From: Elusimicrobiota bacterium
GTDB lineage: Bacteria; Elusimicrobiota; Elusimicrobia; 2-02-FULL-39-32
NCBI GenBank assembly: GCA_021730935.1
Contig: JAKFYJ010000023.1
Coordinates: 1 to 54,379 of the forward strand
DNA length: 54,379 bases
Direction of reading: 5' to 3'
In this document: positions 3,356-28,291 of the stretch, piece by piece
How positions within the stretch are numbered: position 1 is the stretch's first letter
Layout: the number at the start of each line of letters is the position of its first letter
Translations under genes and position numbers: made by a program
Notes under the pieces: generated by a model
The model's database searches: none
Told to the model about the DNA's origin: nothing
The model's input: only the letters and a program-made list of their open reading frames with translations

Positions 3356-3357
3356 GG

Positions 3358-4782
3358 CTAAACGAGATGCTCCGAAATTTTTTTCACGATTTCTTCCAGA
3401 TGCATGCCCCGCGAGGCCTTGAAGAGGACCGCGGTCCCGGGCTGAATGCATTCCTCGACGGACAGGAGCAGGTCTGCGGGGTCCGTGCAATGTTTGATGG
3501 CGTTTTTGTCCACAAAAGCATTTTTTGCGCTCTGGTAGGAGAACCTGGACTGAGGGCCATAGAAAAAAATGTTCGAGACCGCGAACCCCGCGAGGAATTT
3601 TCCGATCTCCTCGTGTTCCCGGGTGGAAATTTCTCCCAGTTCCAGCATGTCCCCCAGAACGATGCAGAGGCGTTTGTTGGAAAAGGATTCGACGAAAGCT
3701 TCAACGGAAGATCTCACGGACCCCGGATTGGAATTATAGGTGTCATTCACGATCGTGACATCGTCTTTGAGCTGAAGAATTTCGAACCTCATGGGGCTCG
3801 GCTTAAATTTGGCAAGGCCAGCCTGGATTTTTTCTTTGGGGATGCCGAGGGCAAAGGCTCCGGCTCCAGCCGCGCATGCGTTTAGAATATTGAATTTCCC
3901 CATCACCGGAAGCTCGCAGGGTATTTTCGCCAAAATTTTTCCGTGATCGTCTTTGCGCACCATGTTGAATTTGACGGGTCCCGGCCACATCACGATGTCT
4001 GCCGCGTGAACATTCGCCGCTTCCGTGAGGCCGAAGCTGACGGTTTCGATGGATTTGTCCAGCGGAATGCGTCCTTTCATAAACGAAAAGAATTCGTCTT
4101 CAAAGGGGAGCACGGCCGTGCCTCCGGGGAGGATCGCGGAGAGGATCTCACTTTCTCCTCGGGCAATGTCTTCAAGGCTCCCGAAAGTTTCCGTGTGTTC
4201 CAGCCGGATATTGGTGATGATCGCGACGTGGGGCGAGACGATTTCAGAAAGTTTTTGCACTTCCCCCCTGGCGGAAGCCCCGATCTCAAAGACGCCATAG
4301 ATGTGAGCCGGGTCCAGGCGCAAAACGGAAAGCGGGCACCCAATGTCATTGTTGAAATTTCCGAGGCTTGAAACGGACGGGGCTGTTTCGTGCACGATGG
4401 AGGCCAGCATGTCTTTGACTGTGGTTTTTCCGCAGGACCCCACGATCCCCGCGCGTTTGGTCCGAGCGCCGTATTTTTCGCGATAAGCCCTGGCCAGGTC
4501 TCCGAGCGAGCGTTTGGTGTCTTTCACCTTGAGGATGGCGGAAAATCTGGACGGGCTCACGGCGAAGCGGTCAGGGAGCTGGGAAACGACGCAGAGAGAA
4601 GCGCCTCTTTTGATGCAGTCTTCAAGATAGGCGTGGCCGTCAAACTTTTCGCCTTTGATGGCGAAAAAGATGTCGCCGTTTTTCACGGACCTGGAATCCG
4701 TGGAAATGCCTGAGACCGCGGCCTTGGGGTCCCCGATCACCAGGAGCCCGCTTGTGGCCCGCGTGATTTCAGACACCGTCAT
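3358..4782 (-). CDS. murF: UDP-N-acetylmuramoyl-tripeptide--D-alanyl-D-alanine ligase
   Basis: MurF adds D-Ala-D-Ala to complete the UDP-MurNAc pentapeptide. The translation has the N-terminal substrate-binding domain (STDSRSVKNGDIFFAIKGE), the ATP loop GSCGKTTVKDM, and the C-terminal ligase motif NDTYNSNPGSV with GDMLELGE. GSCGKT instead of GTNGKT is normal for MurF. I prefer the ATG at 4782 (MTVSEI, 474 residues) because it overlaps the murE stop as ATGA. An in-frame ATG at 4791 would add three residues. Neither start has a clear Shine-Dalgarno, so coupling to murE translation is likely. Confidence 0.96.
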   Translation of the reverse strand: MTVSEITRATSGLLVIGDPKAAVSGISTDSRSVKNGDIFFAIKGEKFDGHAYLEDCIKRGASLCVVSQLPDRFAVSPSRFSAILKVKDTKRSLGDLARAYREKYGARTKRAGIVGSCGKTTVKDMLASIVHETAPSVSSLGNFNNDIGCPLSVLRLDPAHIYGVFEIGASARGEVQKLSEIVSPHVAIITNIRLEHTETFGSLEDIARGESEILSAILPGGTAVLPFEDEFFSFMKGRIPLDKSIETVSFGLTEAANVHAADIVMWPGPVKFNMVRKDDHGKILAKIPCELPVMGKFNILNACAAGAGAFALGIPKEKIQAGLAKFKPSPMRFEILQLKDDVTIVNDTYNSNPGSVRSSVEAFVESFSNKRLCIVLGDMLELGEISTREHEEIGKFLAGFAVSNIFFYGPQSRFSYQSAKNAFVDKNAIKHCTDPADLLLSVEECIQPGTAVLFKASRGMHLEEIVKKISEHLV

Positions 4783-9850: not shown

Positions 9851-9862
9851 TAAAAAAATAAA

Positions 9863-10264
9863 GTCCGGGGCCTGTAAGCCGAATTTTGTCGTCGCGTGCG
9901 GCGACTGAAGACCATTCCTCTGATGCGGTTTACCCGGAGAGATTGAACCGAGCACAGTTTATCCGTCCGGCGTTATGCCGGACAGGCCTCTCGTTATTTA
10001 ACCTTGCTGCGGACGGGGTTTGTCCTCTCTCAGGATTTCGCCTGAGAGCGTGAGCTCTTGCCTCACGTTTTCACCCTTCCTCCGACGTGAATCCGGAGAG
10101 GTTTGGTTTCTGTGACACTTTCCTGACCCGCCCTCTCGGACGAACCCGCCTGATTGACTCAGGCCGTCCTGCTCTTGCTCCGCCATGCATCCTGCGGACT
10201 GCAGTTCGGACTTTCCTCCCCGTTCCAACGCGAGCTGGAACAGAGCGGTCTTCCGGCACCGGAC
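9863..10264 (-). ncRNA. rnpB: RNase P RNA, bacterial type A-like
   Basis: The 402-nt RNA begins GTCCGGTGCC and ends GGCCCCGGAC, so the ends pair as helix P1. The universally conserved 5' core GAGGAAAGTCCG (near 10208-10220) and the 3' core ACAAAATTCGGCTTA (near 9873-9888), which together form P4, are both present. CGAGAGG-type internal loops and the AGAGGAATGGTC stretch also fit. It processes the 5' ends of tRNAs with RnpA, which is not in this window. It starts only 11 nt after the stop of the RNase HI gene, so it may be cut out of the longer transcript. Confidence 0.95.
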
Positions 10265-11422: not shown

Positions 11423-11497
11423 TGGTGGGCGGTACAGGTTTCGAACCTGTGGCCTTTCGCGTGTGAGGCGAACGCTCTACCGCTGAGCTAACCGCCC
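11423..11497 (-). tRNA. tRNA-Val (anticodon CAC)
   Basis: All four arms fold: acceptor GGGCGGT/ACCGCCC, D-arm GCTC/GAGC, anticodon arm TTCGC/GCGAA with loop CTCACAC, and T-arm ACAGG/CCTGT with TTCGAAA. The anticodon CAC is at 11463-11465. Discriminator A and an encoded CCA end the gene at 11423. An extended -10 box (TGC-TATAAT, 11508-11516) lies 10 nt upstream. Confidence 0.97.
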
Positions 11498-12297: not shown

Positions 12298-12370
12298 TGC
12301 CGGGGGACGGAATTGAACCGCCGACACACGGTTTTTCAGACCGTTGCTCTACCGACTGAGCTACCCCGGC
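12298..12370 (-). tRNA. tRNA-Phe (anticodon GAA)
   Basis: The cloverleaf is complete: acceptor GCCGGGG/CCCCGGC, D-arm GCTC/GAGC, anticodon arm ACGGT/ACCGT with loop CTGAAAA, and T-arm GGCGG/CCGTC with TTCAATT. The anticodon GAA is at 12335-12337. CCA is not encoded, unlike the neighbouring tRNA-Val. Confidence 0.97.
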
Positions 12371-14225: not shown

Positions 14226-14233
14226 GTATTGAT

Positions 14234-14239
14234 ATTATA
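14234..14239 (-). promoter_or_regulatory. -10 box giving a likely leaderless gph transcript
   Basis: A perfect TATAAT lies 8 nt before the GTG start of gph. The -35 region is weak. Transcription would begin within about 2 nt of the start codon. Confidence 0.65.
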
Positions 14240-14281
14240 CAAAAATATGCTGCTTGAGTTGACTCGCGGATGGGTTAGTCC

Positions 14282-14305
14282 AAATTAGAAATTGATTTCT
14301 AATTT
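14282..14305. repeat. Perfect AT-rich inverted repeat
   Basis: AAATTAGAAA and TTTCTAATTT form perfect 10-bp arms around a TTGA loop. It sits between the brnA stop and the gph promoter. It lacks a T-run, so a terminator role is possible but weak. An operator for gph is the alternative. Confidence 0.6.
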
Positions 14306-14317
14306 ATAAAACTGCCC

Positions 14318-14527
14318 TTAAAAATGTTTTTGGAGGAGTTTTACCTCTTTCTTAACAAGTCCGTTCACCATGTCGCCAATCTGTAGATGCTTTTTCTGAG
14401 CGAGCTTTTCCAGGCTATGCTGTAAATTAGCGGACAAATAGATCGGCAAACGGAGGTGCGCGCCTTTTTTATAAAATTTTCCTCTCGTTCCCTCGCTGAA
14501 ATCATATTCTTTTTTCATAAATTTCAC
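14318..14527 (-). CDS. BrnA-like antitoxin
   Basis: This 69-residue protein is encoded directly after a BrnT toxin with a 4-nt overlap. A basic N-terminal half is followed by LRLPIYLSANLQHSLEKLAQKK, a ribbon-helix-helix-like pattern (a beta strand with alternating residues, then two helices). Such antitoxins bind the toxin and repress the shared promoter. The short size leaves little else to recognise. The call depends on the partner. Confidence 0.75.
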   Translation of the reverse strand: MKFMKKEYDFSEGTRGKFYKKGAHLRLPIYLSANLQHSLEKLAQKKHLQIGDMVNGLVKKEVKLLQKHF

Positions 14528-14817
14528 CGTCCGTATTGTTTAATTTCGTTCTTTGTCGCTTTTCTGGCTGAAAAGATTCGAATGAAAGTTTCTGCGTTTG
14601 CTGATTTTCTATATGTATGGCAAACAACGATTACGGCGCCATTCCGGTCCATTCCCATTGTGATCCATCGATCTTCATCCCGGCTGTGATCGTCGTCAAA
14701 TCGAGACAGCGCTCTGGGATCTTTAAAAACAGATGAAGCAACTTCAAAACTCACATGATGTTTTTGCTTATTTTTTGCGGCTTTTAGCGGGTCCCATTCA
14801 AAGCTATAGATGAACAT
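14524..14817 (-). CDS. brnT: BrnT family toxin
   Basis: This 97-residue protein has the BrnT hallmarks: FEWDPLKAAKNKQKHHVSFEVASSVFKDP at the start, the R-W-x-x-M-G strand near residue 50, and FIRIFSARKATKNEIKQY at the end, which contains the conserved R-I-x-S-A-R-x-A motif. BrnT toxins have a RelE/ParE-like fold and cut RNA. It is the first gene of a two-gene unit with its own promoter 11 nt upstream of the start codon. Confidence 0.9.
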   Translation of the reverse strand: MFIYSFEWDPLKAAKNKQKHHVSFEVASSVFKDPRALSRFDDDHSRDEDRWITMGMDRNGAVIVVCHTYRKSANAETFIRIFSARKATKNEIKQYGR

Positions 14818-14828
14818 TGTTTACTCAT

Positions 14829-14857
14829 AGTATATCTATCAGAATTTAATATTTCAA
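14829..14857 (-). promoter_or_regulatory. Promoter of the brnTA unit
   Basis: TTGAAA (14852-14857) and TATACT (14829-14834) are separated by 17 bp. The start codon is 11 nt after the -10 box, so the leader is very short. Confidence 0.75.
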
Positions 14858-14864
14858 TCAATTC

Positions 14865-14903
14865 CCCCAAAAAGAAATCGGGACCCTCGGAGGAGAGTCC
14901 CGA
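14865..14903 (-). terminator. Rho-independent terminator of the giant gene
   Basis: In the minus-strand transcript TCGGGAC (14897-14903) pairs with GTCCCGA (14878-14884) around a 12-nt loop that is itself partly paired, and TTTCTTTTT follows. It lies 28 nt after the stop of the giant ORF. Confidence 0.85.
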
Positions 14904-14931
14904 CTCCTTGTGTGTCTTGTGAGGTAACGGG

Positions 14932-17900
14932 TTATTGCTGAACGGCGATGACGGCCTGAGCTTTGGCGGCTTCCATGAATTTGTCGAGCGTATAGATCTC
15001 ACGGAGGACGCCGTTTTCGCCGAGCAGGAAGACCAGGACTTGATGTTTGAGACTTTCGATCAGGAGGCCAGGGTCCGTGGTGAAGATGGCGAATTTTCCC
15101 GGCACATTTTGAGCGATGAACTCCACGCTCACTTGGGTCGGCACGACATTTCCGGTTTGTTTCTGGACGATGATTTCGGTTTTTATGTTCTGTTGCGCAA
15201 GAATGGAGGCAAGCCATTTCTGGTCTGCAACCGAGGGAACCACGATGGTGAACTCCGCATCTTGTTCCTTGAGCTGAGCCATTCTCTTGAGAGCAGTTGT
15301 GATGGCTCCTTTGTCGGCTTTGCGGTCCATGACGAAAACATTGCGGACTGTGGGGATTTTGTTGGCGTGCACGGGGTTTCCGATTCTTTGTTCAGGGGAA
15401 CTCGCGGCAAAGGCGGCGGCGCCATATCCTTCCTGCGCGGCTTTAAGACGGTTGCTGAAGAGTTCGCTGAGTTTGGCTTGTGAGGCATGGGCGGCGGCAT
15501 CTGCCCCCGAAGTGTCAACGCGCGCCGGATTCATGGATTCAAGAAGTTTCACGGGTTCCCTGACGACGACATTGTCTCCGCCGAGAAGATCTCTCAATGT
15601 TTGGAGGGTCCGAGGGTCGTTCGGGTTGCTGTGAGCCAGAGCCCCCGCGAGGAATGCGGTTCTCTCATCAGCATCGCCCAGCTGACCTGCAAGTTCCGTG
15701 ATCCTGTCGCTGGTCTGAGGCTGTGTCTTGCGCAAATAAGCAAACGCTTGATAACCAAGAATCCCAACCCCAATGACAGGCGACCAGGCGCCGAGGACCG
15801 AGAGCCATCCGGCTGATGTTCCGGCGGAGACGGCAGAAACCGCGGCGTCGGACGAAACGACGGAGAGAGCCAGGAGTCCGGGAACGAGAAGGGCGATGAG
15901 GATCACAGAGTGAATGCCTGAGATCTGGGATATTCTGGCTATAGCTCTTTGAAGCGGGATTAATAACTCCCTGATCGACGTTTGATGTGGAGTGGTCGAA
16001 ATCCGAGATATCGCAGATAATCTATCTATCGCAGCTGTAATCCATTCTGTCAGATCTCTCGAATTTATATCTGTTAAGGTCTCGAAGAATCCGTCGTATC
16101 TGTCTTTTTCGTGCTCTGGAAGCCAAAGTTTGATCCCATACATAGAGGCCACCACAGATACTTTGATCGCATCGAGAGTGTCCGTTGGCCTGTTGAGGGC
16201 CTGGTTTGCGCGGTCGAGGAGGTGGGGCGGGGCGGCGATAAGGATTTGAATGTTGCCGGCGCGATGTTGAAGACTTCTGACGAAAGTTTCAATCGGATGA
16301 ACTTGAGATTCCGTTTCGATCTCTTCGCTGGGAACCTCCCAACGCGCGACGATCATTTTGTTGTTGGACATGTGCTTCGCTAGATCCGTCTGCACAACAA
16401 ATTCTTTCATATCTTCATCATTCCTAATGGAAAACATGAAGCCGTCGGCTGTGCCGCGGTCTGAATTGATTGATGCATTTCCCTCAAGAAGGACGATGAC
16501 GCGATCCCCCTGAGAGGGCAATCTATTATTTATGAGATATCTGACTTCACTCATTTCTCTCTTGTCTTTTAATACGACGATGAGCTTTTCGGGCGTTTTC
16601 CTAAGCGCTTTCGTTATCGACCTTTCTACAAAAACATGCCTAAGGTCATTGACGCCGCGTATTTCCAGGATGACTTTTGCCATATCACTCTCTAAAGCGT
16701 GCTGTAAGAGTCCGACTGTTTCAATATCATTGTTTCCAATCCTGGAAAGCGCTAAAGATTGTGCGTGTTCTTCATTAAAACTTATGATGCCTCCGGTTAT
16801 GCCGATTTCCTGCAATTGCTCAGGAGTGATGTTTGAATTGGGTATGTGAGGTCTTCCCATGTGGTTGGAAATGATGGTGATCATGGAAATGATAAGGAGA
16901 GGGGTTCCCGCGCTTAAAATAAGGTTTGCCCAGGCCATGACAGCGCTCTGAACACCGGAATGAGCGGCGGTTGCGGCGGGGATCACGGGGCCTGCGAAGA
17001 GCGCCGCGGCGGAGAGAGTGACGGCGATGAAGGCGGACATGATGGCTCCGGGGGCGCCGAAGCCGACAAAGCCGCTTGCTTCAAAACGCTGCCACAGAGA
17101 CGCGTCGCTCTTGCCGAGCTGATTTTCGTCGACGGATCCATACTTGGCCTTTTCATTTTCAAGCCAGTCTTTCATGACCTTCATTGTCGCCATCAGGCGC
17201 GTGTTGACGGCGTCGCCGTACATGGCATCCTTGTTTTCGCCCGGCAGAAGCGGGGTTTCGAACGCGGAGACATAGGTGGGGTCGTTGGCGGAAGCGCGGA
17301 AAACGATGCGCGCGGCAAAGACTCCGTTCAGTGTGAAATGGATGTCGGCATAACGATTCAGGCCTTTTTCTTCATCCTCGTCCACATTGATGTCCAAATA
17401 AGACACCTCGAGGACGCCTGCGGCGGTCTGGAATGGTTTCCCCACTGCAAAGTCTGTCCGCGCGTGCTCGATCGCGTTGTGCCTTGCTCTTGCGATCAGG
17501 AGCTGTCTGGGCTCTTCGGGGTCTTCCGGGAGCGCCGTTGCGGACTGTTTCCGGAGGAAATTCTTGTCGATGGCCGGCTGGAAACGGGCAGACTGGCGAT
17601 AGGGGGTGGTGTTTTTTTCGAAGGCTTCATAGAACGGATTTGTTGAAGCGGGATGCGCGTCTTTATAATTCTTCACCATCATGGCATAGAGCACGCCGAC
17701 AGCCACGGGGTTTTCGATGGGACCTGTGACGTCCGTCCATGCATGTCCGCTTTTCTCGGCATACATCGGGATGACATAACCGTCGTTCATGAGCTTGCGG
17801 CGTCTGGCTTTGAGGAACACATAACCCGCATCAGTTTGGAAAGTTTCAAATCCCTGCTCTTTCGCTTTGTCGACGACGCCCCAGGTTCCCAAAACATCTT

Positions 17901-20900
17901 TGATGAAAGCGACGCCTTTTTTGCCGTTTCTTTTGAGGACTTCAGGATTATATCCCCCGCGTTCTTTGAAGAAGGGCATGAGCGCGGCCATCAGGTTGTC
18001 GGGAGGAAGGACCAGGAAATCGCCGTTGGGCAGGCGCACCACGATGGCTCCGCGGTCTCCGTCCAGGTCGAAAGACAATCCGAAGTCCGCGGTTTCAGCC
18101 AGCATGGTTTCTTTGAGCTCGGCAAGGTTTTCCGGTTTTGAAGGGTCCGCTTTGTGCATGCCGTGAAGGGCGAGCACCTTTTCATTTTTGCGGATCACTT
18201 TGGCTCCCAATTGTTCAAGCGTGTCTGCCGCGATTTTTCCGCTGGGGGTGTGGGCGCCGTCGATCACGCATTTGAAGCCTTTGAGCGGTTTGTCGTTGCC
18301 GAAAATTTCTTCCCATTCTTCCAGGAGCTGGAGCGGATTTTCAGACGCCTCAAGAGCTCTTGCAAGGTCATAAAGATTTTTGCCTCCGTGCCCCGTGTCG
18401 GCGACTCTTCCGATGAGAGCGTTCAGGCGGACTGCGGCGTCGTCGGGGTTGATGGCTTTGACCGTGCCTTTGATTTTTCTCTCCTGCGCTCGAAGAGATT
18501 TGGGGTTTTTCACGAAATCATCGACGGTTTTCTCTGTGGTCTGCTTGATTTCTTTTGAGGTCAGGCTTTGCGGTTCCCCGGACTCGTCCTGAATGACGAC
18601 CTTGACTCCGCGGACCTGGATGTTTAATGTCCCCTTGGGATAGAAAGCATGCAATTGCTGGGGCGTTGTTTCATCGAGATTGTTCAGAACTGATGCGATC
18701 TTTTCAGCCACCTTTTTATCATCGCCTTCGAGATTTTCAGGACCTCCGATTTTTTGAAGGATTTTTAAATCGATGGGACGGCCCAAAATCACTTCTTTCT
18801 TGAATGCCTTTACATCGATATGGATGCTGGTGAACGGTTCGGAGATCTCCGGTCTCGCCACATGGCTGGAAGTGATGTCCGGTCTCGCGACATGGCTGGA
18901 AGTGAGGAACACGCCCATGAGGGGTTTATAGAGCTGGATGGCGGCGGAATAGGAAGTGACGCAGTTGGGGCCTTCTTCCTGAATATCGAGGACATGGATT
19001 CCGGCATATTGGAAACCGGCTCTCACCGCGTCGATCAGTTCCTTGTTCACTTTGCGGGCGTCGCGCGCGAGCACGACGGTGCGTTTCTCGGCGGGCAAAT
19101 TGAGTTTGTCCGCTTTTTCGTGCGCCATCTTGGCCCAGGTGACGGCCAGACGGAACGCCATCGCGGGCGTGATGACCTGCTCAACGGAATCGTCATCCAC
19201 ATTTTTCTCTCCGCGGAAATCATAGGTGCGATAAAAATCATCGCTGATCTTGAGCTGGTCTTGGGGGGCGTTGAGATATTGAGACACATCGGCTCCCTGG
19301 CGCAATTTCTGATTCTTGGCGAAATTTTCGTTCGCGGCCCGCTCGAAAGCTTTTTCGAGCAGGGAGATTGAAGAGAGCGTGGACTCCGTGCGAAGGAACG
19401 CGGCTTTTCCCCCCTGAGCGGAACGGTCCAGCAGGACCTGATACATGGATTCGGCGAAATAATCGCGGACCAGGTTGGTGCTCACGCGGTCAAGATATCC
19501 CTTCGCTAAGACAGCTTTGCGGCCGGCCTGAGGCGTTTCAGGATTCATGGAAATGATGAACGGCAGATATTTTTGCGGCTGGAACGCCACCTGGTTGAAG
19601 CTGATGTGCTGGTCGCCTGTCCCTTGCATGACCCAGGGAATGCCCTTGCTCATGAAATATTCCCTCAGGGTAATGAACCCGACGCCTTCCAGATATATGA
19701 ACGGAACGAATTTCCGGCCTTCTTTGTCGGCGACATCCATCGCGGCGCTGATCTTTGCCTGCAATTCTTCCATGTTGATTGCGTTGCCGGCGGGAATTTC
19801 CGCGATGTTGGTCAGGAACTGACCATTTTTGGAATGGGCATAAACATCCGCATAGGCCTGATCGATGGCGGCAGGGTTTTGTTTGGCTCTTTCCTGGAGG
19901 GCTTTGAGGCGTTTTTCCAGAATTTTCTTTCCCAGCTCGACATAGGGCTGGCGCAGATACAGGTTGTCGATCACAATGCGGGTCGCGGGGTTGTCCAAAT
20001 CTTTCATGTCCACATTTTTGACCTGGAGCTGTTCGGCGAGTTCGGCGTTGCCGGCGGCATAGGCCGCGTCTCTGGCTCTTTTCATTGTGGCCGCGATCAA
20101 CCGGGTTCCCACGGTGTGGGTGATGCCGTAAAAAAGAGAGTTGAGCCGGGCGAAAGAATCAGCGATCTGCTGGCCGCTCATGTTTTGGAAATCAATGCGG
20201 GGCAGGCGGAGGTCATTTTTATATTGAGCGAATTCGTCTTCGGAAATATCCAGGGCGGACAAATTGATGACGAGTTTGTTGGGTTCGTTTGAATAAAGAT
20301 GTTTCTGGTTTTCCCAGAGGCTTTGACGGAGGGTCACGAGGTTGGAGGAACCGTCCTGGAATATGCTTTCGTTATAATTTTGTTCTATGGATTTTCCGAA
20401 CCAGAAAAGATGGTCCGGGACCACGAGGGCGATGTCTGTGATTTTTTCATCGACGATCCGGTTTCCTATTTTAACCGACGGGTGCCAGCCGAAACGGAAC
20501 CGGCGGATGGCATTGTATCGCGTCCGCCAATAATCTTTGGCGCTCAGCCCATATTTCGCGAGGAAAGTCATCATGTGGAGGTCCGCAGTCCATCGGCCGC
20601 CGACATTGTCATACATTTCCCCAAAACCCGGCGTGTGGTCCGGGCCCAGCTCTTTGTCCAGCCCGGAATTCTTGATGAACGCGGCGAGCCGGCTTTGGTC
20701 CACGCGCGGAGTGGTTTCAAAGAACATGTTGCCGAGGACAGTTTGGAATGATTTGAGGACGGCGGCTCTGTCTGCGCCGGATTTGGACGCGATCATGTCG
20801 ATCAGGTTTTTCCCGGCGGGAACCTTGAACAGTTCCTCTATCGGTTTTTCCTGGCCTTTTTTGTCTCCGTCCTGATAGAAATTGATTTCGTGGAGGACAT

Positions 20901-23900
20901 CCAAAACGGAATCTGCAAACGTTGCGCCCGACACGCCCACGGGAGTGTTGTGTTTGAGGAGGACATATAAAATTTCGACGAAGATCATCATGGTTTCGTC
21001 CGTGGATCCGGACTTGGAGCTCGGGATCACGACGATCTGGTCCCAGTCGATGCCCAGTTCCGTGACGATTTTCTGAAGGGCCGCTTCATAATCTTTGCCC
21101 AGTTCATATTCGCCCAGGATGACGGTGTTGTCTTGTTCCTGCACTTGCACGGAGACGCTGAACCCGTCGCTTGCGGCCTGGAACGGAGTGTGCTGTCCGC
21201 CGATGCCTGTCTTGATGATGACGCGGATGCTTTTGCCCGGGGATTTGGCGCTGAGGACCCTGTTGCGCCGATCAAAAAATGCTTTCATGTTTTCCACGGT
21301 CCCTATGAACACTTTATCGCCTTCGTCTGTGTAATATCCCTGGTTTCCGTGTAACGCAAAAGATCCGTCCACGGCGGCTCCAAATCCGACGCCGGTCCCT
21401 TTTCCGTCCATGCCTCCGTCGAGATATGGCTTCTCGAGCTGTTTTCTTAAAGGCTCATTTTTCTTTGCTTTCCTCGGGACAGGGAGCACCTGCCAGAGTT
21501 TTCTGGAGATGGCGCGGGAATCAAGATATTCCTGGGAGCGCGGTTTTCTCACCAAAACGCTCAGCCGTTTGAAGGGTTCAACATTCGCATTCCAGGCCCA
21601 GTGGCCGAGCCAGTGAGGGAGGCCGTAGCCGAGGAATGAGAGGAAGAAGCTGAGGGCTCCGGGCGAGGCGAAGCTCTGAAAATAATTCGCAAAGGGAACC
21701 GCGCCCAGCGTGAGGAGGACCATCATGATCGGAGATTCGAGGAAAATTCTGAAATTGTCTTTCTGATTTCCGGGGTGAGCGGCATACCACGCCGCGGACA
21801 GGACGAAACCGATCGCGGCCTGGGTCATGAATCCGTCCTGAAGGAAATGGCTCAGAACCGCAAAAGCGAGCGCGAGGGTCCAGCTTTCAACGGCGGGGTC
21901 CCGGTGCTTTTCGAGACTTTCAGTTTTGGCCGCGGCTTGATCTTCAGATAAACCAGCGTCCATAAATTTCTTTATGCGCGCTTCGCGGTCGAAGACGGAG
22001 AGGCGGGCACGAGCGTTGGGGTTGTGGATCGAGATTTGCACGGTTTTCCCGTTGATTATTTTGAGGTTAAATGTCTGCGCAAAATTTGTCACAGCCAAGG
22101 CATCTCGGATATCCATTTCAGGACTTTCTCGGAACGAAGGCTTTTTTGTAAAGACAATCTTTCCATCTCTGACCATCTGCAGTTCGACTGTGCCGTTTTG
22201 ATCCATTAAATTTCTTACTTGAGAAACAACCAGGTTCATGCCGATGTTGGACAAGATGGTTCCATTGGGCATGCTGAACATTGCGAAGATCACGGGGAGT
22301 CCCAGGGTCAGGCTTGCGGGGCCATGGAAGGCATATCCGAGCGCGACGGCAAGGAGGGCAGCTCCTGTTGCGATGATGCTTCGGGTCCGCCGCGTCGCGG
22401 GCTGAGCGGGCATTTCGGCGAGTTTTCTGTCGATTTTATTGATTTGATCTTGCCAGTATTCATACCTGGGATTTGTCTCTCTGGAAGCATAGATTTTCCT
22501 GGTCACCGATCTCTGGGCCACGGCGAGGGTTTTGAGAATTTGAAGGCGTTCTCTTCTACTATTTTTCACTTTATATATATTGAAATCCTCAAGAGTTTTT
22601 TCTATATCTGCCGAGCCGACCAGATAGGCTTCTGCTGGGCCTCTTTTATGGTATGTTGACATGATGCCAGAGCTCATCCTCATCCGGGCCAAAATGAGCA
22701 CGACGGCCAAAATTTCTTCATCGAGCATGCTCTCGAAATATTGAGTGTCTCCCCGATCTTTTAATATGTCGCGCAGGACTTCTTTGGGGCCTGATTCATC
22801 GGGGATTTTGAGATCTCGTCTTAATGCCGCCCACCGGATCGCGGCGTCGCTGACTATATCGTTGTTTAAAGTTTCGTTGTCGGCGGAAAGGCTCTCAAGG
22901 AATCGTTTTTGCAAGTCAACTTCTTCATTCTTATAGACATTGTGCGGGGTAATATAATCAGTAAATACTTCCATTGCATATGGAGTCCTTCTTCTGAACC
23001 ATCCCTCTTTCTGCCAGGTGATCCCAATCGCGGCGGTTCCGGCGCCGAGGACGGCATAAAGCGCGTTCGCGGCGGTGAACCAGGAGCCGGCATCGGCGCT
23101 GGCGGCCTGGAGCAGGACCGCGGCGTCAGAGGAGTCGGGCAAGAGGGCGGATCCGATGGCGGCCAGGATGAGGACGCGGATGAGACGATAAGGATGCGCT
23201 AATGATTTTTGAATGGCGGGAAGATTATTAGATTCGGTTGGATGTATGGCTGTCCTGAATAGGAGAGGAGGTTTATTCGATTTTTCCGCAAACATTACCC
23301 TCGCGGTGTAAAACTTTGGCACAAGATTTGAACCTAAATTGTTTAGTTCATCCGTGACATATTTACGGGCCGCGGGTCGATAGCGCAGAGCATGATCATA
23401 CATATTCAATAGAATGTGATCCCGCTCTAAAAATATGGTTTTTCTCTCTCCAGTGAAAGAATAACCATCGATGGCAATGTGCACAACATCATCTTTAAGG
23501 AAATTTTTCACGACTTCATCGATGAATTTTTCCTTGGCGCTGAGGCGACGAGGTTTCGCGTTCATTCTTTTGCCGATGACGGCGCGTTCCGAAGATTTTC
23601 CATCTTTCGAGGTTTTGCTGATACTCGTCCTTTTTATCTGATTTCCTGCCGTGAGAGCGAGAGGGAATTTCATGCCGAAGAGAAGGGAAACAGGGATGAA
23701 AATGATGTTGTATATGAGATGCGTCAATTCGCCGATTTTTGATTTGTAGTTGTTAACGATGAAGACCCCGACCACAATTGAAACTGGAATGCTGACGAAC
23801 CACATCCCAGAAGTCATTTCAAAAACTTTATATCCCACCATTCCGCCGATGACGTATGGCAGGGTATACATCGAGATGATGATGGCTCCGACGCCCAAAA

Positions 23901-26316
23901 GTCTGACGGATTTTTGGATCGTGGCGAGGACGAAATTTTTGCTGTAATCCTTATGTTCATTGGCCAAAAAATTAAGGAAATTGTTCTCGATGTGTTTCTG
24001 TTCCAATCGGGGTGCGAACTTCAATCCTGCGTAGAGATAAATGACAGCCGCGCCGAGATGGGGAAATTTCTTTGACAGATATATTGCCCATTTTTTTCCA
24101 TCGCTCTGGGGAAGTGGTTCATGGTTGCCGAATATTTCGGCGGCAATAGCCATGGTTCCGCCATAAAAAAGAAGTTTTCTCGTTATTTCAGTTCCCAAGA
24201 GATAGTTTGTCGCGTGCCGAATGGCGTTTTCCGATGTGAGAGCGAAAGCGAGACCGTTACTCTTTAGGGTAAAGAACAGATTGGATTTCGCTGGAGCGAT
24301 GGCGAACTGCCTGCTGGGTTTGGGGGCAATGGGATTTTGCAATTCTCCGGAGGCGCTTGCTTTCGTGAGAGTCGAATCTGTTCCGGCTTCCATGATTTCG
24401 ACTTTGACGGCGCCGGTTTGGGTGTTGACGGTTGTGACTTGCCGGCTTGATTTCAATGCGGCAGTGATGGCCTGGAAGAAGGATTTTACTGTGACGGCAG
24501 ATTGAGCGAACCACGGCTGGCCCAGGTTGAGGGCTTTGACGATGGTCACTTTTTCAGGGGCAAAAAGTTTTTCGAGAGGGATCAAGTCCCGCGAGAAGGC
24601 ATTCATGGGATGATAATCTTTGGTGATTTCTGCCAGGTTCATTTTGGGGCGGATGGTGATGAATGAGATGTCTTTATCTTTAAGGAGGGTTTCCAGGCCG
24701 CCTGTGTGGGCGCCGCCGGCAACCAGGACGCTGACTTTCGCGTTTTTCTCGGACATTTTCTTTGTGAGGCGTCCCACGAAAGCATGGCTTCGGACATCGG
24801 ACTGTTTGTTGAAGAGCGAAATGTTTTTGATGAGAGCGGGGTTGAGTTCGGGGGCTCCAATTCGCTGTGCGATGCCAAGGATGCGGGACTCGTGCGCGGT
24901 GAACTCGGCAAAATCTGAGGGAGTGAGGCTGAAGGCGATGCCTTTTTTAAGGAGGCGGAAATCCTGGTCGATCTCGTGGAGTTCTCGACTCGCTTCGCTC
25001 GCTCGAACAATAACATTGCCGGTGTCGCGCGAGAGCGTCGAAATTTCATTTTGCAGGGATTCCTGGTTGATGCTTTCCGTGCCGGCGACATATTGGATAT
25101 ATTTGGAGAGTTCTGAGGAGACAGGAATTTTTGCGGAGCGGCAACGGTCTTTGAGGGACTCATAAAAATCGGCGTATCCGATGCGGCCCAGGCGGAAGAT
25201 GAGGCAGTCCTGGAGGAGGGCCATGAGATCGTCTTTGCTCAGGGACTCGGAAAGTTCTTTGAGGACTTTTCTCTGTTCCGCGCTGATCTTTGCCATGTCG
25301 AGAGAATTTTCGGTTTCATAAAGCTTGAGGAAAGCGGAGACATTGGGGAATTTTGAGGTTTGGCCGCTGAATTTGGCGAGGGCGGAAATCCATTCCCCGA
25401 GTTTGAGTTCCCCCTTTTCATATTGCGTCTGGGCGCGGTCAAATTTTTTGGCTGGTTCGGAATAGGTTTTTTCTTTGAGCGAGGCGAGGAGAGTTTCGGT
25501 TTGCGCGGCCCATTCGGCGGACGGCTTGTTCTGGGCGAAGGCGTTTTTATAGGCGTTCACCTGTGTCATATAATTTTCTTTGTCTTCAAGTCCCCAGAAT
25601 TCGACTTCGTCGCGGGTTCTCGCGAGGCCAGCGATTTCGGAACCTGTCAGGAGCTGGACGCTCAGCAGATATCCCGCGGCTTCCATCACGCTTTCGCGGT
25701 CCGGGAACTTGTGCCACTCTTCCATGGCGTCAAGGCGGCCTTCCGTGCCTTCAAGGCCGACGAGATCAACGCCGGAATCGGTCAGCTCCTTTAATAAAAA
25801 CGCAAGGTTTTTCTGGACGCCCAGGACATCATGGACATCCTGAATGTGGATGACGACGGGGAGGTTGGAAGAAATTTTGCCGTTTGCAAGGGAGAGTTTC
25901 GCGCCTTTGGCGAGCTGGACGCGCTCAATGTTGCCGTAACTTGCGACTTTTTCCCAGAGCCAGGCCGGGATCTGCGTGTTTTGGGCGCCTTTGGAATGTC
26001 TGGCTGTGTGTTTGTTGAGCGCTGACTGAATTCTGGCCTGAAGCGCGTCGTTTTGTTCTTTTGAGAGGCTGTTGGTGAGGCGCGTGACATCGTTCTGAAG
26101 TTGGCCTGGGACCATGGCGGCGGAGGCGAGCTGTGGATACGCGCGGGCATCGGAGGATTTTTCCGACATTTTTTCAGCGGCTTTCCGGCGTTCTTCCCAG
26201 AGGCCGGCCTGGGCATAAGGCGCGGAGAAGGTGGTGAACGAGAATGCGGCCAAAACAAACAGGGCGACCGCTCTCTGAATTTTTTCAAAAGTTGTTTTTT
26301 TAAGTTTTGTTTTCAT
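14932..26316 (-). CDS. Giant exported/membrane protein with phosphoglucose isomerase- and phosphoglucomutase-like regions
   Basis: This is a 3,794-residue protein. The ATG at 26316 is chosen because GGAG lies 6 nt upstream and a signal peptide follows (residues 1-37, ending APYAQA). Regions in order: 155-560, a globular domain starting VVIHIQDVH and ending in VLVAGGAHTGG, resembling ChaN/TraB-type folds (tentative). 720-885 is multi-helix membrane. 920-1010 is unknown. 1035-1090 and 1305-1350 are membrane hairpins. 1480-1575 has about four helices. 1620-2330 is a phosphoglucose isomerase (SSKSGSTDET, VGGRWTADLHM, GTGDQHISFNQ). 2355-3030 is a phosphoglucomutase/phosphomannomutase (YDFRG, serine loop TSSHVAR, metal loop DLDGDR, sugar loop EKSGH, phosphate loop RASANDP). 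3090-3145 is a membrane hairpin. 3150-3460 is unknown. 3465-3530 is a membrane hairpin, and the C-terminal part is unknown. Activity is unproven: the isomerase ESNGK glutamate motif is not clear. It appears monocistronic with its own terminator. Confidence 0.85.
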   Translation of the reverse strand: MKTKLKKTTFEKIQRAVALFVLAAFSFTTFSAPYAQAGLWEERRKAAEKMSEKSSDARAYPQLASAAMVPGQLQNDVTRLTNSLSKEQNDALQARIQSALNKHTARHSKGAQNTQIPAWLWEKVASYGNIERVQLAKGAKLSLANGKISSNLPVVIHIQDVHDVLGVQKNLAFLLKELTDSGVDLVGLEGTEGRLDAMEEWHKFPDRESVMEAAGYLLSVQLLTGSEIAGLARTRDEVEFWGLEDKENYMTQVNAYKNAFAQNKPSAEWAAQTETLLASLKEKTYSEPAKKFDRAQTQYEKGELKLGEWISALAKFSGQTSKFPNVSAFLKLYETENSLDMAKISAEQRKVLKELSESLSKDDLMALLQDCLIFRLGRIGYADFYESLKDRCRSAKIPVSSELSKYIQYVAGTESINQESLQNEISTLSRDTGNVIVRASEASRELHEIDQDFRLLKKGIAFSLTPSDFAEFTAHESRILGIAQRIGAPELNPALIKNISLFNKQSDVRSHAFVGRLTKKMSEKNAKVSVLVAGGAHTGGLETLLKDKDISFITIRPKMNLAEITKDYHPMNAFSRDLIPLEKLFAPEKVTIVKALNLGQPWFAQSAVTVKSFFQAITAALKSSRQVTTVNTQTGAVKVEIMEAGTDSTLTKASASGELQNPIAPKPSRQFAIAPAKSNLFFTLKSNGLAFALTSENAIRHATNYLLGTEITRKLLFYGGTMAIAAEIFGNHEPLPQSDGKKWAIYLSKKFPHLGAAVIYLYAGLKFAPRLEQKHIENNFLNFLANEHKDYSKNFVLATIQKSVRLLGVGAIIISMYTLPYVIGGMVGYKVFEMTSGMWFVSIPVSIVVGVFIVNNYKSKIGELTHLIYNIIFIPVSLLFGMKFPLALTAGNQIKRTSISKTSKDGKSSERAVIGKRMNAKPRRLSAKEKFIDEVVKNFLKDDVVHIAIDGYSFTGERKTIFLERDHILLNMYDHALRYRPAARKYVTDELNNLGSNLVPKFYTARVMFAEKSNKPPLLFRTAIHPTESNNLPAIQKSLAHPYRLIRVLILAAIGSALLPDSSDAAVLLQAASADAGSWFTAANALYAVLGAGTAAIGITWQKEGWFRRRTPYAMEVFTDYITPHNVYKNEEVDLQKRFLESLSADNETLNNDIVSDAAIRWAALRRDLKIPDESGPKEVLRDILKDRGDTQYFESMLDEEILAVVLILARMRMSSGIMSTYHKRGPAEAYLVGSADIEKTLEDFNIYKVKNSRRERLQILKTLAVAQRSVTRKIYASRETNPRYEYWQDQINKIDRKLAEMPAQPATRRTRSIIATGAALLAVALGYAFHGPASLTLGLPVIFAMFSMPNGTILSNIGMNLVVSQVRNLMDQNGTVELQMVRDGKIVFTKKPSFRESPEMDIRDALAVTNFAQTFNLKIINGKTVQISIHNPNARARLSVFDREARIKKFMDAGLSEDQAAAKTESLEKHRDPAVESWTLALAFAVLSHFLQDGFMTQAAIGFVLSAAWYAAHPGNQKDNFRIFLESPIMMVLLTLGAVPFANYFQSFASPGALSFFLSFLGYGLPHWLGHWAWNANVEPFKRLSVLVRKPRSQEYLDSRAISRKLWQVLPVPRKAKKNEPLRKQLEKPYLDGGMDGKGTGVGFGAAVDGSFALHGNQGYYTDEGDKVFIGTVENMKAFFDRRNRVLSAKSPGKSIRVIIKTGIGGQHTPFQAASDGFSVSVQVQEQDNTVILGEYELGKDYEAALQKIVTELGIDWDQIVVIPSSKSGSTDETMMIFVEILYVLLKHNTPVGVSGATFADSVLDVLHEINFYQDGDKKGQEKPIEELFKVPAGKNLIDMIASKSGADRAAVLKSFQTVLGNMFFETTPRVDQSRLAAFIKNSGLDKELGPDHTPGFGEMYDNVGGRWTADLHMMTFLAKYGLSAKDYWRTRYNAIRRFRFGWHPSVKIGNRIVDEKITDIALVVPDHLFWFGKSIEQNYNESIFQDGSSNLVTLRQSLWENQKHLYSNEPNKLVINLSALDISEDEFAQYKNDLRLPRIDFQNMSGQQIADSFARLNSLFYGITHTVGTRLIAATMKRARDAAYAAGNAELAEQLQVKNVDMKDLDNPATRIVIDNLYLRQPYVELGKKILEKRLKALQERAKQNPAAIDQAYADVYAHSKNGQFLTNIAEIPAGNAINMEELQAKISAAMDVADKEGRKFVPFIYLEGVGFITLREYFMSKGIPWVMQGTGDQHISFNQVAFQPQKYLPFIISMNPETPQAGRKAVLAKGYLDRVSTNLVRDYFAESMYQVLLDRSAQGGKAAFLRTESTLSSISLLEKAFERAANENFAKNQKLRQGADVSQYLNAPQDQLKISDDFYRTYDFRGEKNVDDDSVEQVITPAMAFRLAVTWAKMAHEKADKLNLPAEKRTVVLARDARKVNKELIDAVRAGFQYAGIHVLDIQEEGPNCVTSYSAAIQLYKPLMGVFLTSSHVARPDITSSHVARPEISEPFTSIHIDVKAFKKEVILGRPIDLKILQKIGGPENLEGDDKKVAEKIASVLNNLDETTPQQLHAFYPKGTLNIQVRGVKVVIQDESGEPQSLTSKEIKQTTEKTVDDFVKNPKSLRAQERKIKGTVKAINPDDAAVRLNALIGRVADTGHGGKNLYDLARALEASENPLQLLEEWEEIFGNDKPLKGFKCVIDGAHTPSGKIAADTLEQLGAKVIRKNEKVLALHGMHKADPSKPENLAELKETMLAETADFGLSFDLDGDRGAIVVRLPNGDFLVLPPDNLMAALMPFFKERGGYNPEVLKRNGKKGVAFIKDVLGTWGVVDKAKEQGFETFQTDAGYVFLKARRRKLMNDGYVIPMYAEKSGHAWTDVTGPIENPVAVGVLYAMMVKNYKDAHPASTNPFYEAFEKNTTPYRQSARFQPAIDKNFLRKQSATALPEDPEEPRQLLIARARHNAIEHARTDFAVGKPFQTAAGVLEVSYLDINVDEDEEKGLNRYADIHFTLNGVFAARIVFRASANDPTYVSAFETPLLPGENKDAMYGDAVNTRLMATMKVMKDWLENEKAKYGSVDENQLGKSDASLWQRFEASGFVGFGAPGAIMSAFIAVTLSAAALFAGPVIPAATAAHSGVQSAVMAWANLILSAGTPLLIISMITIISNHMGRPHIPNSNITPEQLQEIGITGGIISFNEEHAQSLALSRIGNNDIETVGLLQHALESDMAKVILEIRGVNDLRHVFVERSITKALRKTPEKLIVVLKDKREMSEVRYLINNRLPSQGDRVIVLLEGNASINSDRGTADGFMFSIRNDEDMKEFVVQTDLAKHMSNNKMIVARWEVPSEEIETESQVHPIETFVRSLQHRAGNIQILIAAPPHLLDRANQALNRPTDTLDAIKVSVVASMYGIKLWLPEHEKDRYDGFFETLTDINSRDLTEWITAAIDRLSAISRISTTPHQTSIRELLIPLQRAIARISQISGIHSVILIALLVPGLLALSVVSSDAAVSAVSAGTSAGWLSVLGAWSPVIGVGILGYQAFAYLRKTQPQTSDRITELAGQLGDADERTAFLAGALAHSNPNDPRTLQTLRDLLGGDNVVVREPVKLLESMNPARVDTSGADAAAHASQAKLSELFSNRLKAAQEGYGAAAFAASSPEQRIGNPVHANKIPTVRNVFVMDRKADKGAITTALKRMAQLKEQDAEFTIVVPSVADQKWLASILAQQNIKTEIIVQKQTGNVVPTQVSVEFIAQNVPGKFAIFTTDPGLLIESLKHQVLVFLLGENGVLREIYTLDKFMEAAKAQAVIAVQQ
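18845..18904 (-). repeat. In-frame 30-nt tandem duplication in the mutase catalytic loop
   Basis: Two 30-nt units (18845-18874 and 18875-18904) differ at only 2 positions. They encode TSSHVARPDI followed by TSSHVARPEI (residues 2472-2491 of the giant protein). The unit contains the Ser-His pair that corresponds to the phosphoserine loop of phosphoglucomutases. Confidence 0.9.
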
Positions 26317-26363
26317 GTTTGTCTCCATAAAAAAAGAAATCACCCTTTGACTTCAGGATGATC

Positions 26364-27119
26364 TCACTTGGGTGAACGGCCTCCAAAATAAAACGACGGT
26401 GAATCTTCTCCCACCCCTCGGGCATGGCGCCAGAGGCGGAGTTTTTGGGACGCAGGCAGCGATGCCTGACGCTCGATCTGTTTGTGATGCGTGACTCTGA
26501 ATTCAACGCTTGGAATCGGGATGAGAATAAAGTTGAGGGGACTCAAATCAGGCTCGTCGTCTGGTTTGCGTTCGTCGGTGCGTTTCAAAATCGCGTGGTG
26601 ATGAGTTTGAATGTGCGATGGGCCAGAAATGCTCTGCGAGACTGTTTGCGAGACCGTCCACAGAACTGAATGAATTTGTTGTAAATTTATTTTCATTCCA
26701 GCGTTTTGGATGGGGGGCCCGGTCGCCTGCGGCGACTGGGGGAAACCACGGAGAGGTTTCCCGCAGAGAACCCGCTGGAAGGAAAATAAATTTACGACAA
26801 GTTCATTCAGTTTTGTGGATCGAATGTGAAGGTCTGGAGCGAGAAGCGAAGGATGATATTTCTGGAGGGCGTTTTTGGATGAGACGGAAAGGACTTTCGA
26901 AGTTCCGAATAATATTTGTTTCAGATTGAGGCGGCGGAGCGAAGATTTCCAGATGAAAGGGTTGACGGCGGAACAAAGGGAACGGAGGGCGACGGGAGCG
27001 AAAGCGATGGGCTGAACGGATTGGGCCTGAGCCGCGATGAAAGTGAACCCGTTGTTCAGGCCTGAGAAATGGAAGAACGACAGCAAGGTCAGGAGTCTGA
27101 CGATTCTGGCTCGGCGCAT
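26364..27119 (-). CDS. Doubtful small secreted ORF upstream of the giant gene
   Basis: I do not recognise this 251-residue ORF. From the ATG at 27119 it begins RRARIVR followed by a hydrophobic stretch and FTFIAAQAQ, which could be a signal peptide. A TATCAT box lies 7 nt upstream. The C-terminal half runs through the 163-bp inverted-repeat element at 26657-26819 and has low-complexity, improbable composition (TVSQTVSQ, many His/Arg). It may be a real short gene whose 3' half was replaced by an inserted repeat, a pseudogene, or chance. It ends 47 nt before the giant gene start. Confidence 0.3.
   Translation of the reverse strand: MRRARIVRLLTLLSFFHFSGLNNGFTFIAAQAQSVQPIAFAPVALRSLCSAVNPFIWKSSLRRLNLKQILFGTSKVLSVSSKNALQKYHPSLLAPDLHIRSTKLNELVVNLFSFQRVLCGKPLRGFPQSPQATGPPIQNAGMKINLQQIHSVLWTVSQTVSQSISGPSHIQTHHHAILKRTDERKPDDEPDLSPLNFILIPIPSVEFRVTHHKQIERQASLPASQKLRLWRHARGVGEDSPSFYFGGRSPK
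26657..26819 (+). repeat. 163-bp structured inverted-repeat element
   Basis: The 47-nt arms 26657-26703 and 26773-26819 are inverted copies with 43 of 47 positions identical. If transcribed from the plus strand, three of the four differences become G-U pairs, leaving a single mismatch. The 69-nt interior has two further hairpins: CCCGGTCGCC/GGCGACTGGG (26718-26740, loop TGC) and GGGAAACC/GGTTTCCC (26740-26762). The result is a branched RNA-like shape. It could be a MITE or palindromic repeat, or a structured non-coding RNA. No other copy was seen in the window. Confidence 0.75.
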
Positions 27120-27160
27120 GGGTATAATGATACCAAAGGAGGAATAAACTTGTCCTAAAC

Positions 27161-27219
27161 TTTTTGTAACATTTTTGTAAACTTTTTGTGTTGACAAAAG
27201 GCACACAACGGACTATAAT
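27161..27219 (+). promoter_or_regulatory. Perfect consensus promoter with three phased T-rich repeats
   Basis: TTGACA (27191-27196) and TATAAT (27214-27219) are spaced by 17 bp, a full sigma-70 consensus. Upstream, TTTTTGT occurs at 27161, 27172 and 27183, exactly 11 bp apart, ending just before the -35 box. The repeats could be an UP element or the operator for autoregulation by the downstream antitoxin. The ATG at 27226 is 6 nt after the -10 box. Confidence 0.85.
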
Positions 27220-27225
27220 TCCAAG

Positions 27226-27513
27226 ATGCCGATCATGAAATGGTCGCTGGAAAAGAACGAATGGCTCAAGGCCAATCGCGGCATCACCTTTGAGGAAATA
27301 AAATTTTCAGTTGAAAACGGAGGACTCCTGGATGTCATCAAACATCACAATCCCCATAAATATCCCAATCAGCATCTTTGGATTGTGTCCGCCAATGAAT
27401 ATGTTTTTTATGTCCCATTCGTCGAGAATTCAGATGAAATCTTTTTAAAAACCATCATTCCAAGCAGAAAAGCGGTCAAGCGATATTTGAGAGGAGGTCG
27501 TTCAGATGAATAA
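27226..27513 (+). CDS. BrnT-like toxin of a type II toxin-antitoxin pair
   Basis: This 95-residue protein has KWSLEKNEWLKANRGITFEEI, then GGLLDVIKHHNPHKYPNQ, then FLKTIIPSRKAVKRYL. This is a common family annotated as toxin, with a BrnT/RelE-like layout, and it is always followed by a gene like the next one. The FLKTIIPSRK ending corresponds to the R-I-x-S-A-R strand of BrnT. The start at 27226 is nearly or fully leaderless; a second ATG at 27235 is in frame. It overlaps the antitoxin by 8 nt. Confidence 0.82.
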   Translation: MPIMKWSLEKNEWLKANRGITFEEIKFSVENGGLLDVIKHHNPHKYPNQHLWIVSANEYVFYVPFVENSDEIFLKTIIPSRKAVKRYLRGGRSDE

Positions 27514-27796
27514 AACGAGCAAGCTCACGAAAGAAGAAAAAGAAATATTGAAGTCTGTGGAAAAAGGCGAGTGGCGGTCTGTCCCCAATGTCAGGGCGGA
27601 AATTGATCGTTATCAAAAAATCGCCCGTTCATCGTTGCAGAAAAACATGAGAGTCAATATCCGCATCTCTGCCATGGACATTGAGGGGATCAAACACAGG
27701 GCGTTTCAGGAGGGGATCCCCTATCAAACTCTGATGGCCAGCGTGATCCACAAATATGTGATGGGGCGGTTTGTGGAAAGGGGCGTTTCGCGCTAA
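27506..27796 (+). CDS. CopG/BrnA-like antitoxin
   Basis: This 96-residue protein is typical of the antitoxin partner family. KLTKEEKEILKSVEKGEWRSVPN is followed by the ribbon-helix-helix part VNIRISAMDIEGIKHRAFQEGIPYQTLMASVIHKYV. It should neutralise the toxin and repress the promoter at 27191-27219. AGGAGG lies just before the ATG (27493-27498, 7 nt spacing), so it has its own ribosome site. An orphan relative is at 53656-53934. Confidence 0.85.
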   Translation: MNKTSKLTKEEKEILKSVEKGEWRSVPNVRAEIDRYQKIARSSLQKNMRVNIRISAMDIEGIKHRAFQEGIPYQTLMASVIHKYVMGRFVERGVSR

Positions 27797-27802
27797 ACGC
27801 CC

Positions 27803-28291
27803 GTGATTATTTATCTCTGGCGGCACGGGAAGGCGGAAAGTTCCTCGATGAGCGGCAAGGACGAGGACCGGGCTTTGGCGCCTGAAGGGCGGAACGAAGT
27901 CATCGACATCGCGGATTATTGTTTCGGGGTCCAGGGGCATCCGAAACCTCAAAAAATTTTTTCCAGCCCATATCTGCGCGCCAAGGAAAGCGCGGAGATG
28001 ATTCAGGGGTTTTTGGCGTGCGAGAAGGGACTTGAGATCGTTCCCGCGTTCAGGAGCGGGGCGAGTTTTCCCTCCATGGCGGAGGCCCTCGCGCAAAAGG
28101 CGGGCGGACTTGCGGCTTGCGCGGTGGTGGGGCATGTGCCGGACCTGGAAAGTTTCGCGTTCGGGCTTCTGGACGGAAAACTGGAAGAAATTCACCTCAA
28201 GACCGGCGGCATCATCGCTGTCGAAATCTCCCGACTGCAGGACCCCTTCAGCGGCAAACTCCTCTTCTCAATCAATCCGGAAAATATTTAG
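27803..28291 (+). CDS. sixA: SixA-like phosphohistidine phosphatase (histidine phosphatase family)
   Basis: This 162-residue protein has the catalytic RHG motif at residues 7-9 (LWRHGKAES), the ALAPEGRNE segment, SSPYLRAKESAEMI with the second phosphate-binding Arg, and VVGHVPDLE with the second catalytic His. SixA removes phosphate from phosphohistidine, for example on HPt domains or PTS proteins. The substrate here is unknown, though a histidine kinase lies in the window. The start is a GTG at 27803, 6 nt after the antitoxin stop, so it is probably cotranscribed with the toxin pair. Its 3' end overlaps the convergent cyclase gene by 4 nt. Confidence 0.85.
   Translation: MIIYLWRHGKAESSSMSGKDEDRALAPEGRNEVIDIADYCFGVQGHPKPQKIFSSPYLRAKESAEMIQGFLACEKGLEIVPAFRSGASFPSMAEALAQKAGGLAACAVVGHVPDLESFAFGLLDGKLEEIHLKTGGIIAVEISRLQDPFSGKLLFSINPENI

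Follow-up and report, generated by a model that had tools for sequence, protein, structure and literature searches.

Glycolytic enzymes joined on one chain are known from small natural fusions, PGK-TIM of Thermotoga and TPI-GAPDH of stramenopiles. These hold two enzymes only, have neither a giant scaffold nor a signal peptide of this kind, and provide main rather than extra copies. The protein described here likewise carries related glycolytic enzymes on a single chain, within a scaffold of giant size.

The largest known bacterial proteins include those encoded by giant ORFs of Omnitrophota and Elusimicrobiota, most of which lack an assigned role. Published interpretations give them a part in adhesion, in the coat or in predation (PMC10066038, PMC12057145, PMC11573180). 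The protein studied here resembles them in size, phylum and membrane segments and differs in its enzymes: the giants are described as adhesive or unassigned, and the sections consulted report no glycolytic modules (PMC10066038, PMC11573180). A literature search, with preprints and most subscription papers outside its scope, retrieved neither glycolytic modules in giants nor a PGI-PGM fusion; an earlier note on this DNA knew of no characterised isomerase-mutase fusion of this design.

The analysed stretch of DNA (the window) comprises 54,379 nucleotides of contig JAKFYJ010000023.1 from an Elusimicrobiota bacterium (GCA_021730935.1). An uninterrupted frame occupies positions 14932-26343 of its minus strand. 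From the probable start, an ATG at 26316 that follows GGAGACAAAC, with the ribosome-binding site GGAG 6 nt before it, to the stop at 14932, the gene encodes 3,794 amino acids; residues are numbered from the upstream GTG at 26343 (3,803-aa frame). At this composition, an open frame of 3,804 codons would arise by chance with a probability of about 1e-70, and GC by codon position is gene-like over the entire frame. The 3,794-residue ORF of the earlier note, for which no strand had been given, was thus borne out, and we confirm that the observation of a giant isomerase-mutase ORF is real. The gene and its protein show the following features:

14932..26316, minus strand: full giant gene, 3,794 aa from ATG 26316 (alternative start GTG 26343)
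26206..26316, minus strand: signal-peptide-like N terminus, residues 10-46 (MKTKLKK, a hydrophobic stretch, SAPYAQA; sequence and hydropathy)
24484..25896, minus strand: N-terminal domain, residues 150-620, common to other giants of the class
23650..23931, minus strand: membrane-segment cluster, residues ~805-898
21619..23184, minus strand: several membrane hairpins in region 1054-1575 (heuristic; ~1054-1109, 1323-1365 and 1533-1575)
19348..21438, minus strand: PGI-like module, residues 1636-2332 (structure comparison and motifs), with GIGG 1713, SKSGSTDET 1776, GGR (R1917), E1992, QPYVELGK (K2139) and GTGDQH (H2246)
17254..19248, minus strand: predicted phosphohexomutase module, residues ~2366-3030 (Pfam domains and motifs)
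18844..18903, minus strand: 30 bp repeated in tandem within the active-site loop of the mutase (TSSHVARPDI-TSSHVARPEI, 28 of 30 bases identical)
18619..18843, minus strand: ~75-residue insertion after the phosphoserine loop
16867..17046, minus strand: membrane hairpin following the mutase, residues 3100-3159
15757..15915, minus strand: membrane hairpin close to the C terminus, residues 3477-3529

The Pfam search found no family in residues 930-1620 and 3160-3803. The N-terminal domain (AlphaFold2 pLDDT 73) had no fold match in the PDB; its assignment as a ChaN/TIKI/EreA-like hydrolase, suspected from motifs, could not be supported. Directly downstream of the giant gene (14226-14931, minus strand), a putative BrnT/BrnA toxin-antitoxin pair was noted by eye (MFIYSFEWDPLKAAKNKQKHHVSFEVA...). 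The ~1.9 kb upstream (26344-28287) contain no convincing gene, and two minus-strand ORFs located there look spurious. A class A RNase P RNA and two tRNAs are also encoded on the minus strand of the window (9859-10264, 11426-11497 and 12298-12370).

The isomerase region matched no entry in Pfam (including PF00342) or NCBIfam and no PDB sequence, and we therefore name it PGI-like and do not file it under PF00342. An AlphaFold2 model built from a 14-sequence alignment (pLDDT 83.2, pTM 0.85) showed the two-SIS-domain fold of phosphoglucose isomerase, and Foldseek against the PDB returned a PGI in all 50 of the matches listed (best E 3.6e-8, probability 1.00). The TM-scores to these matches were only 0.3-0.5, as a rearranged fold would give. 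Comparison with canonical PGIs from related genomes shows GIGG, SKSGSTDET and GGR to be colinear, and by eye the NES glutamate as well. The canonical order is broken thereafter: QPYVELGK with K2139 (resembling FDQxGVELGK) precedes GTGDQHISFNQ with H2246 (resembling GTNGQHSFYQ), and the sub-profile matches of the Lys and His segments were equalled by 0/100 and 1/100 column shuffles. S1776, K1777, S1778, T1781, R1917, E1992, K2139, T2242 and H2246 are invariant in all covering rows of the family alignment (27-29 aligned). E1992 and K2139 probably correspond to the canonical catalytic Glu and Lys.

Relative to phosphoglucose isomerase (PF00342; Thermotoga maritima 2q8n), the module shares the fold and the motifs GIGG, SK.G.T.ET, GGR, E(S), GT..QH and Q..VELGK. 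It differs in that the catalytic-His segment follows the catalytic-Lys segment, in giving no profile match, in a large insert and in total length (~700 aa versus 450-550). The segment swap together with the strong divergence explains why sequence profiles miss these proteins, and we call them a divergent, segment-swapped, putatively PGI-like family. The isomerase identity proposed in the earlier note thus holds by structure and motifs, close to the range given there, and structure prediction recovered the PGI fold; the match to sequence profiles does not hold, and this failure, which had been named as counting against the proposal, did occur.

The mutase region matches PGM_PMM_I (1.7e-8) and PGM_PMM_II (5.5e-11), both above their Pfam gathering scores. 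Domains III and IV are suggested by motif and by alignment to the L036 mutase, whose domain III passes the cut-off. All four loops are present (phosphoserine TSSH 2481, metal DLDGDR 2759, sugar EKSGH 2863 and phosphate RASANDP 3016). The phosphoglucomutase-like region of the earlier note was recovered at about residues 2366-3030, with motifs of all four domains. By family, the region is a phosphohexomutase with predicted activity; the EKSGH loop leaves the choice of sugar (Glc, Man, GlcN) undecided. Domains I and II and the four loops are common to the alpha-D-phosphohexomutase superfamily (PMM/PGM of Pseudomonas aeruginosa, 1k35; GlmM), whereas the window copy lies inside a giant fusion and its active-site loop is duplicated and extended. 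Mutases of the same subfamily from Omnitrophota (L036 and L076) have neither the serine-loop duplication nor the ~75-residue insertion. Located beside the catalytic serine, these two changes could impair the window mutase.

Members of the PGI-like family were detected at 13 loci in a scan of a genome collection, in 4/341 Elusimicrobiota genomes and in 20/384 sampled Omnitrophota genomes, three counts that overlap in part. The family is found in Omnitrophota, Elusimicrobiota and, with one locus, Goldiibacteriota; the phyla are intermixed in the gene tree and the deep nodes are poorly resolved. Its members are either stand-alone proteins (cytosolic, no signal) or modules within signal-peptide giants. 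A phosphohexomutase is located in the same ORF or the next gene at 10 of 27 PGI-like loci, and it may stand on either side. It precedes the PGI-like part in G343 (weak), G346, G347, G348, G374, G518 and G367 (adjacent gene) and follows it in the window protein, in G522 and in G290 (weak domain scores). L076 represents a compact version, a 1,564-aa protein with the order signal peptide-PGM-PGI. The homologue search suggested in the earlier note to see whether domain order is conserved therefore showed that the pair recurs, but that its order varies. We argue from this recurrence, in independent MAGs and in both orders, that isomerase and mutase form a functional couple. In a search of 341 genomes of the same phylum and 28 module genomes, the PGM subfamily nearest to the window's mutase was confined to genomes with a PGI-like module. 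We also considered the module as a stand-in for a missing canonical PGI. PF00342 was absent above cut-off from 9/20 Omnitrophota module genomes and present in 216/325 of the phylum sample, which is no clear difference (9/20 versus about 1/3 without PF00342).

Both enzyme identifications were supported overall, and they were extended by a wider set of giants with glycolytic modules. One Omnitrophota MAG contig (JAHJGZ010000186.1, L078) carries a single ORF of at least 5,343 aa with the order PFK-TIM-enolase-PGK-PPDK-PGM-PGI-like, in which the modules show recognisable active-site motifs. Its TIM at 341-620 aa is apparently circularly permuted, its N-terminal GANWK strand lying behind the C-terminal part, and a second, degenerate TIM copy lies at ~1970-2040. 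The Elusimicrobiota genome G290 encodes two giants, one of 5.4 kaa with a signal peptide and TIM-GAPDH-enolase-histidine-phosphatase (PGAM-like)-class II aldolase, the other with PGK, PGI-like, a weak PGM match and a methyltransferase. Further combinations are PGK-enolase (L095), TIM-FBPase (L097), TIM (L098), proline dehydrogenase-TIM (L099), PGK (L100), PFK with PGM domain I and PGI (L031), PGI-PPDK (L040) and a UDPGP-PGM that adjoins PGI (L077). A 27,888-aa frame in Omnitrophota (L118, G570:C35) contains two canonical PGIs, a PGM and a hexokinase (PF00349+PF03727), as well as 6-phosphogluconolactonase-type, 6PGD, PRK and ARMT1 domains. Hexokinases of this type are usual in eukaryotes, and it is possible that the L118 domains were acquired from one. 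In L094 (G544:C12), a single frame combines two TIMs with class I aldolase and isocitrate-lyase-family domains. A 40,515-base contig (L081/L086, G579:C45) consists of one 13,505-aa frame with glycosyltransferase, glucan synthase, PGI-like, PRPP synthetase, PGK, NUDIX, amino-acid kinase, aminotransferase and PEPCK domains.

The embedded TIM and PGK modules retain their catalytic residues in most cases. Stand-alone TIM and PGK are also present in most of 29 genomes checked, so the embedded copies are extra; in the window genome, stand-alone PGI, TIM and PGK are all present. We therefore place the window protein in a class of giants, apparently not described before, to which such additional glycolytic modules are common.

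Hydropathy gave the window protein ~9-14 hydrophobic membrane segments in addition to its signal-like N terminus; the earlier note had likewise placed the enzymes between membrane segments behind a signal peptide. That note had left the side of the membrane open. Our topology prediction used a simple home-made hydropathy and positive-inside model, and its result depends on the threshold: the N-terminal domain is placed outside, and PGI and PGM are placed inside at those thresholds that put no helix within the enzyme folds, whereas several lower thresholds reverse the answer. For the window protein, this rough model favours enzyme modules that face the cytoplasm. Relatives with a signal only argue for export. 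Nearly every giant whose 5' end is complete begins with a signal-like N terminus, and most of these proteins show few or no further membrane segments. No signal is present on the stand-alone PGI-like proteins or on the L034 PGM-PGI fusion. The window protein and its kin might then be exported, their enzymes acting in the periplasm or at the cell surface on sugar phosphates that are taken from other cells or released when polymers are broken down. The signal peptides point in this direction, as do several giants without a further membrane segment by hydropathy, L076 among them. Omnitrophota giants are also tied to predation and adhesion, and ATP/ADP translocases occur in some lineages (PMC10066038). 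We nevertheless consider export unlikely, given that known bacteria keep the substrates and ATP in the cytoplasm and that the window protein has many membrane segments whose parity favours the inside for both modules at the thresholds mentioned above.

Less probable still is a structural or binding role, with the modules as remnants whose enzyme folds now serve as adhesin or scaffold blocks and perform no catalysis. Such a reuse would be analogous to moonlighting glycolytic enzymes on cell surfaces and would suit the usual view of giants in these phyla as surface or adhesion proteins (PMC10066038, PMC12057145). The disturbed mutase loop of the window protein and the degenerate second TIM of L078 also fit. 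A binding block, however, would need neither intact sites nor the recurrent pairing of consecutive pathway enzymes, and the active-site residues are invariant across deeply diverged PGI-like members and mostly kept in embedded TIM and PGK. That separate genes were fused by an assembly or annotation artefact has a vanishingly small probability in our view. Every source is a metagenome bin with many contigs, yet the codon structure is gene-like throughout the window frame, and one entire 40.5-kb contig (L081/L086) is a single ORF. The same pair is fused in independent MAGs in both orders, which contradicts the assembly join named in the earlier note as evidence against the fusion and leads us to regard it as excluded.

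We propose, as the probable reading, that the window encodes a giant membrane-anchored protein with a catalytic isomerase-mutase pair, belonging to a wider class of giants in Omnitrophota, Elusimicrobiota and Goldiibacteriota with extra copies of glycolytic enzymes. Its mutase would interconvert glucose-1-P and glucose-6-P via phosphoserine S2483 (or S2493), with Mg held by D2759/D2761/D2763. The isomerase step, between glucose-6-P and fructose-6-P, would rely on E1992, H2246, R1917 and K2139. Through fusion and anchoring, these successive enzymes may be kept side by side at the inner membrane, the cytoplasmic face being the most likely one in the window protein, and glucose-1-P from glucan or nucleotide-sugar turnover could thereby be linked to glycolysis. 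A more far-reaching idea, which we put forward tentatively and with some doubt, is that signal-peptide giants together provide a second, near-complete glycolysis that is exported or anchored, to which the window protein would supply the steps from glucose-1-P to fructose-6-P. If true, this would constitute a fused extracytoplasmic or membrane-bound glycolytic chain.

Stretches of glycolysis built into the giants of two little-known phyla apparently represent an undescribed arrangement of central metabolism, as predicted from their genomes. The rearranged PGI found here escapes standard profiles. Glycolytic modules with intact active sites, often neighbours in the pathway, give part of the giants a concrete, testable function, and these proteins offer natural multi-enzyme glycolytic chains for studies of metabolite channelling.
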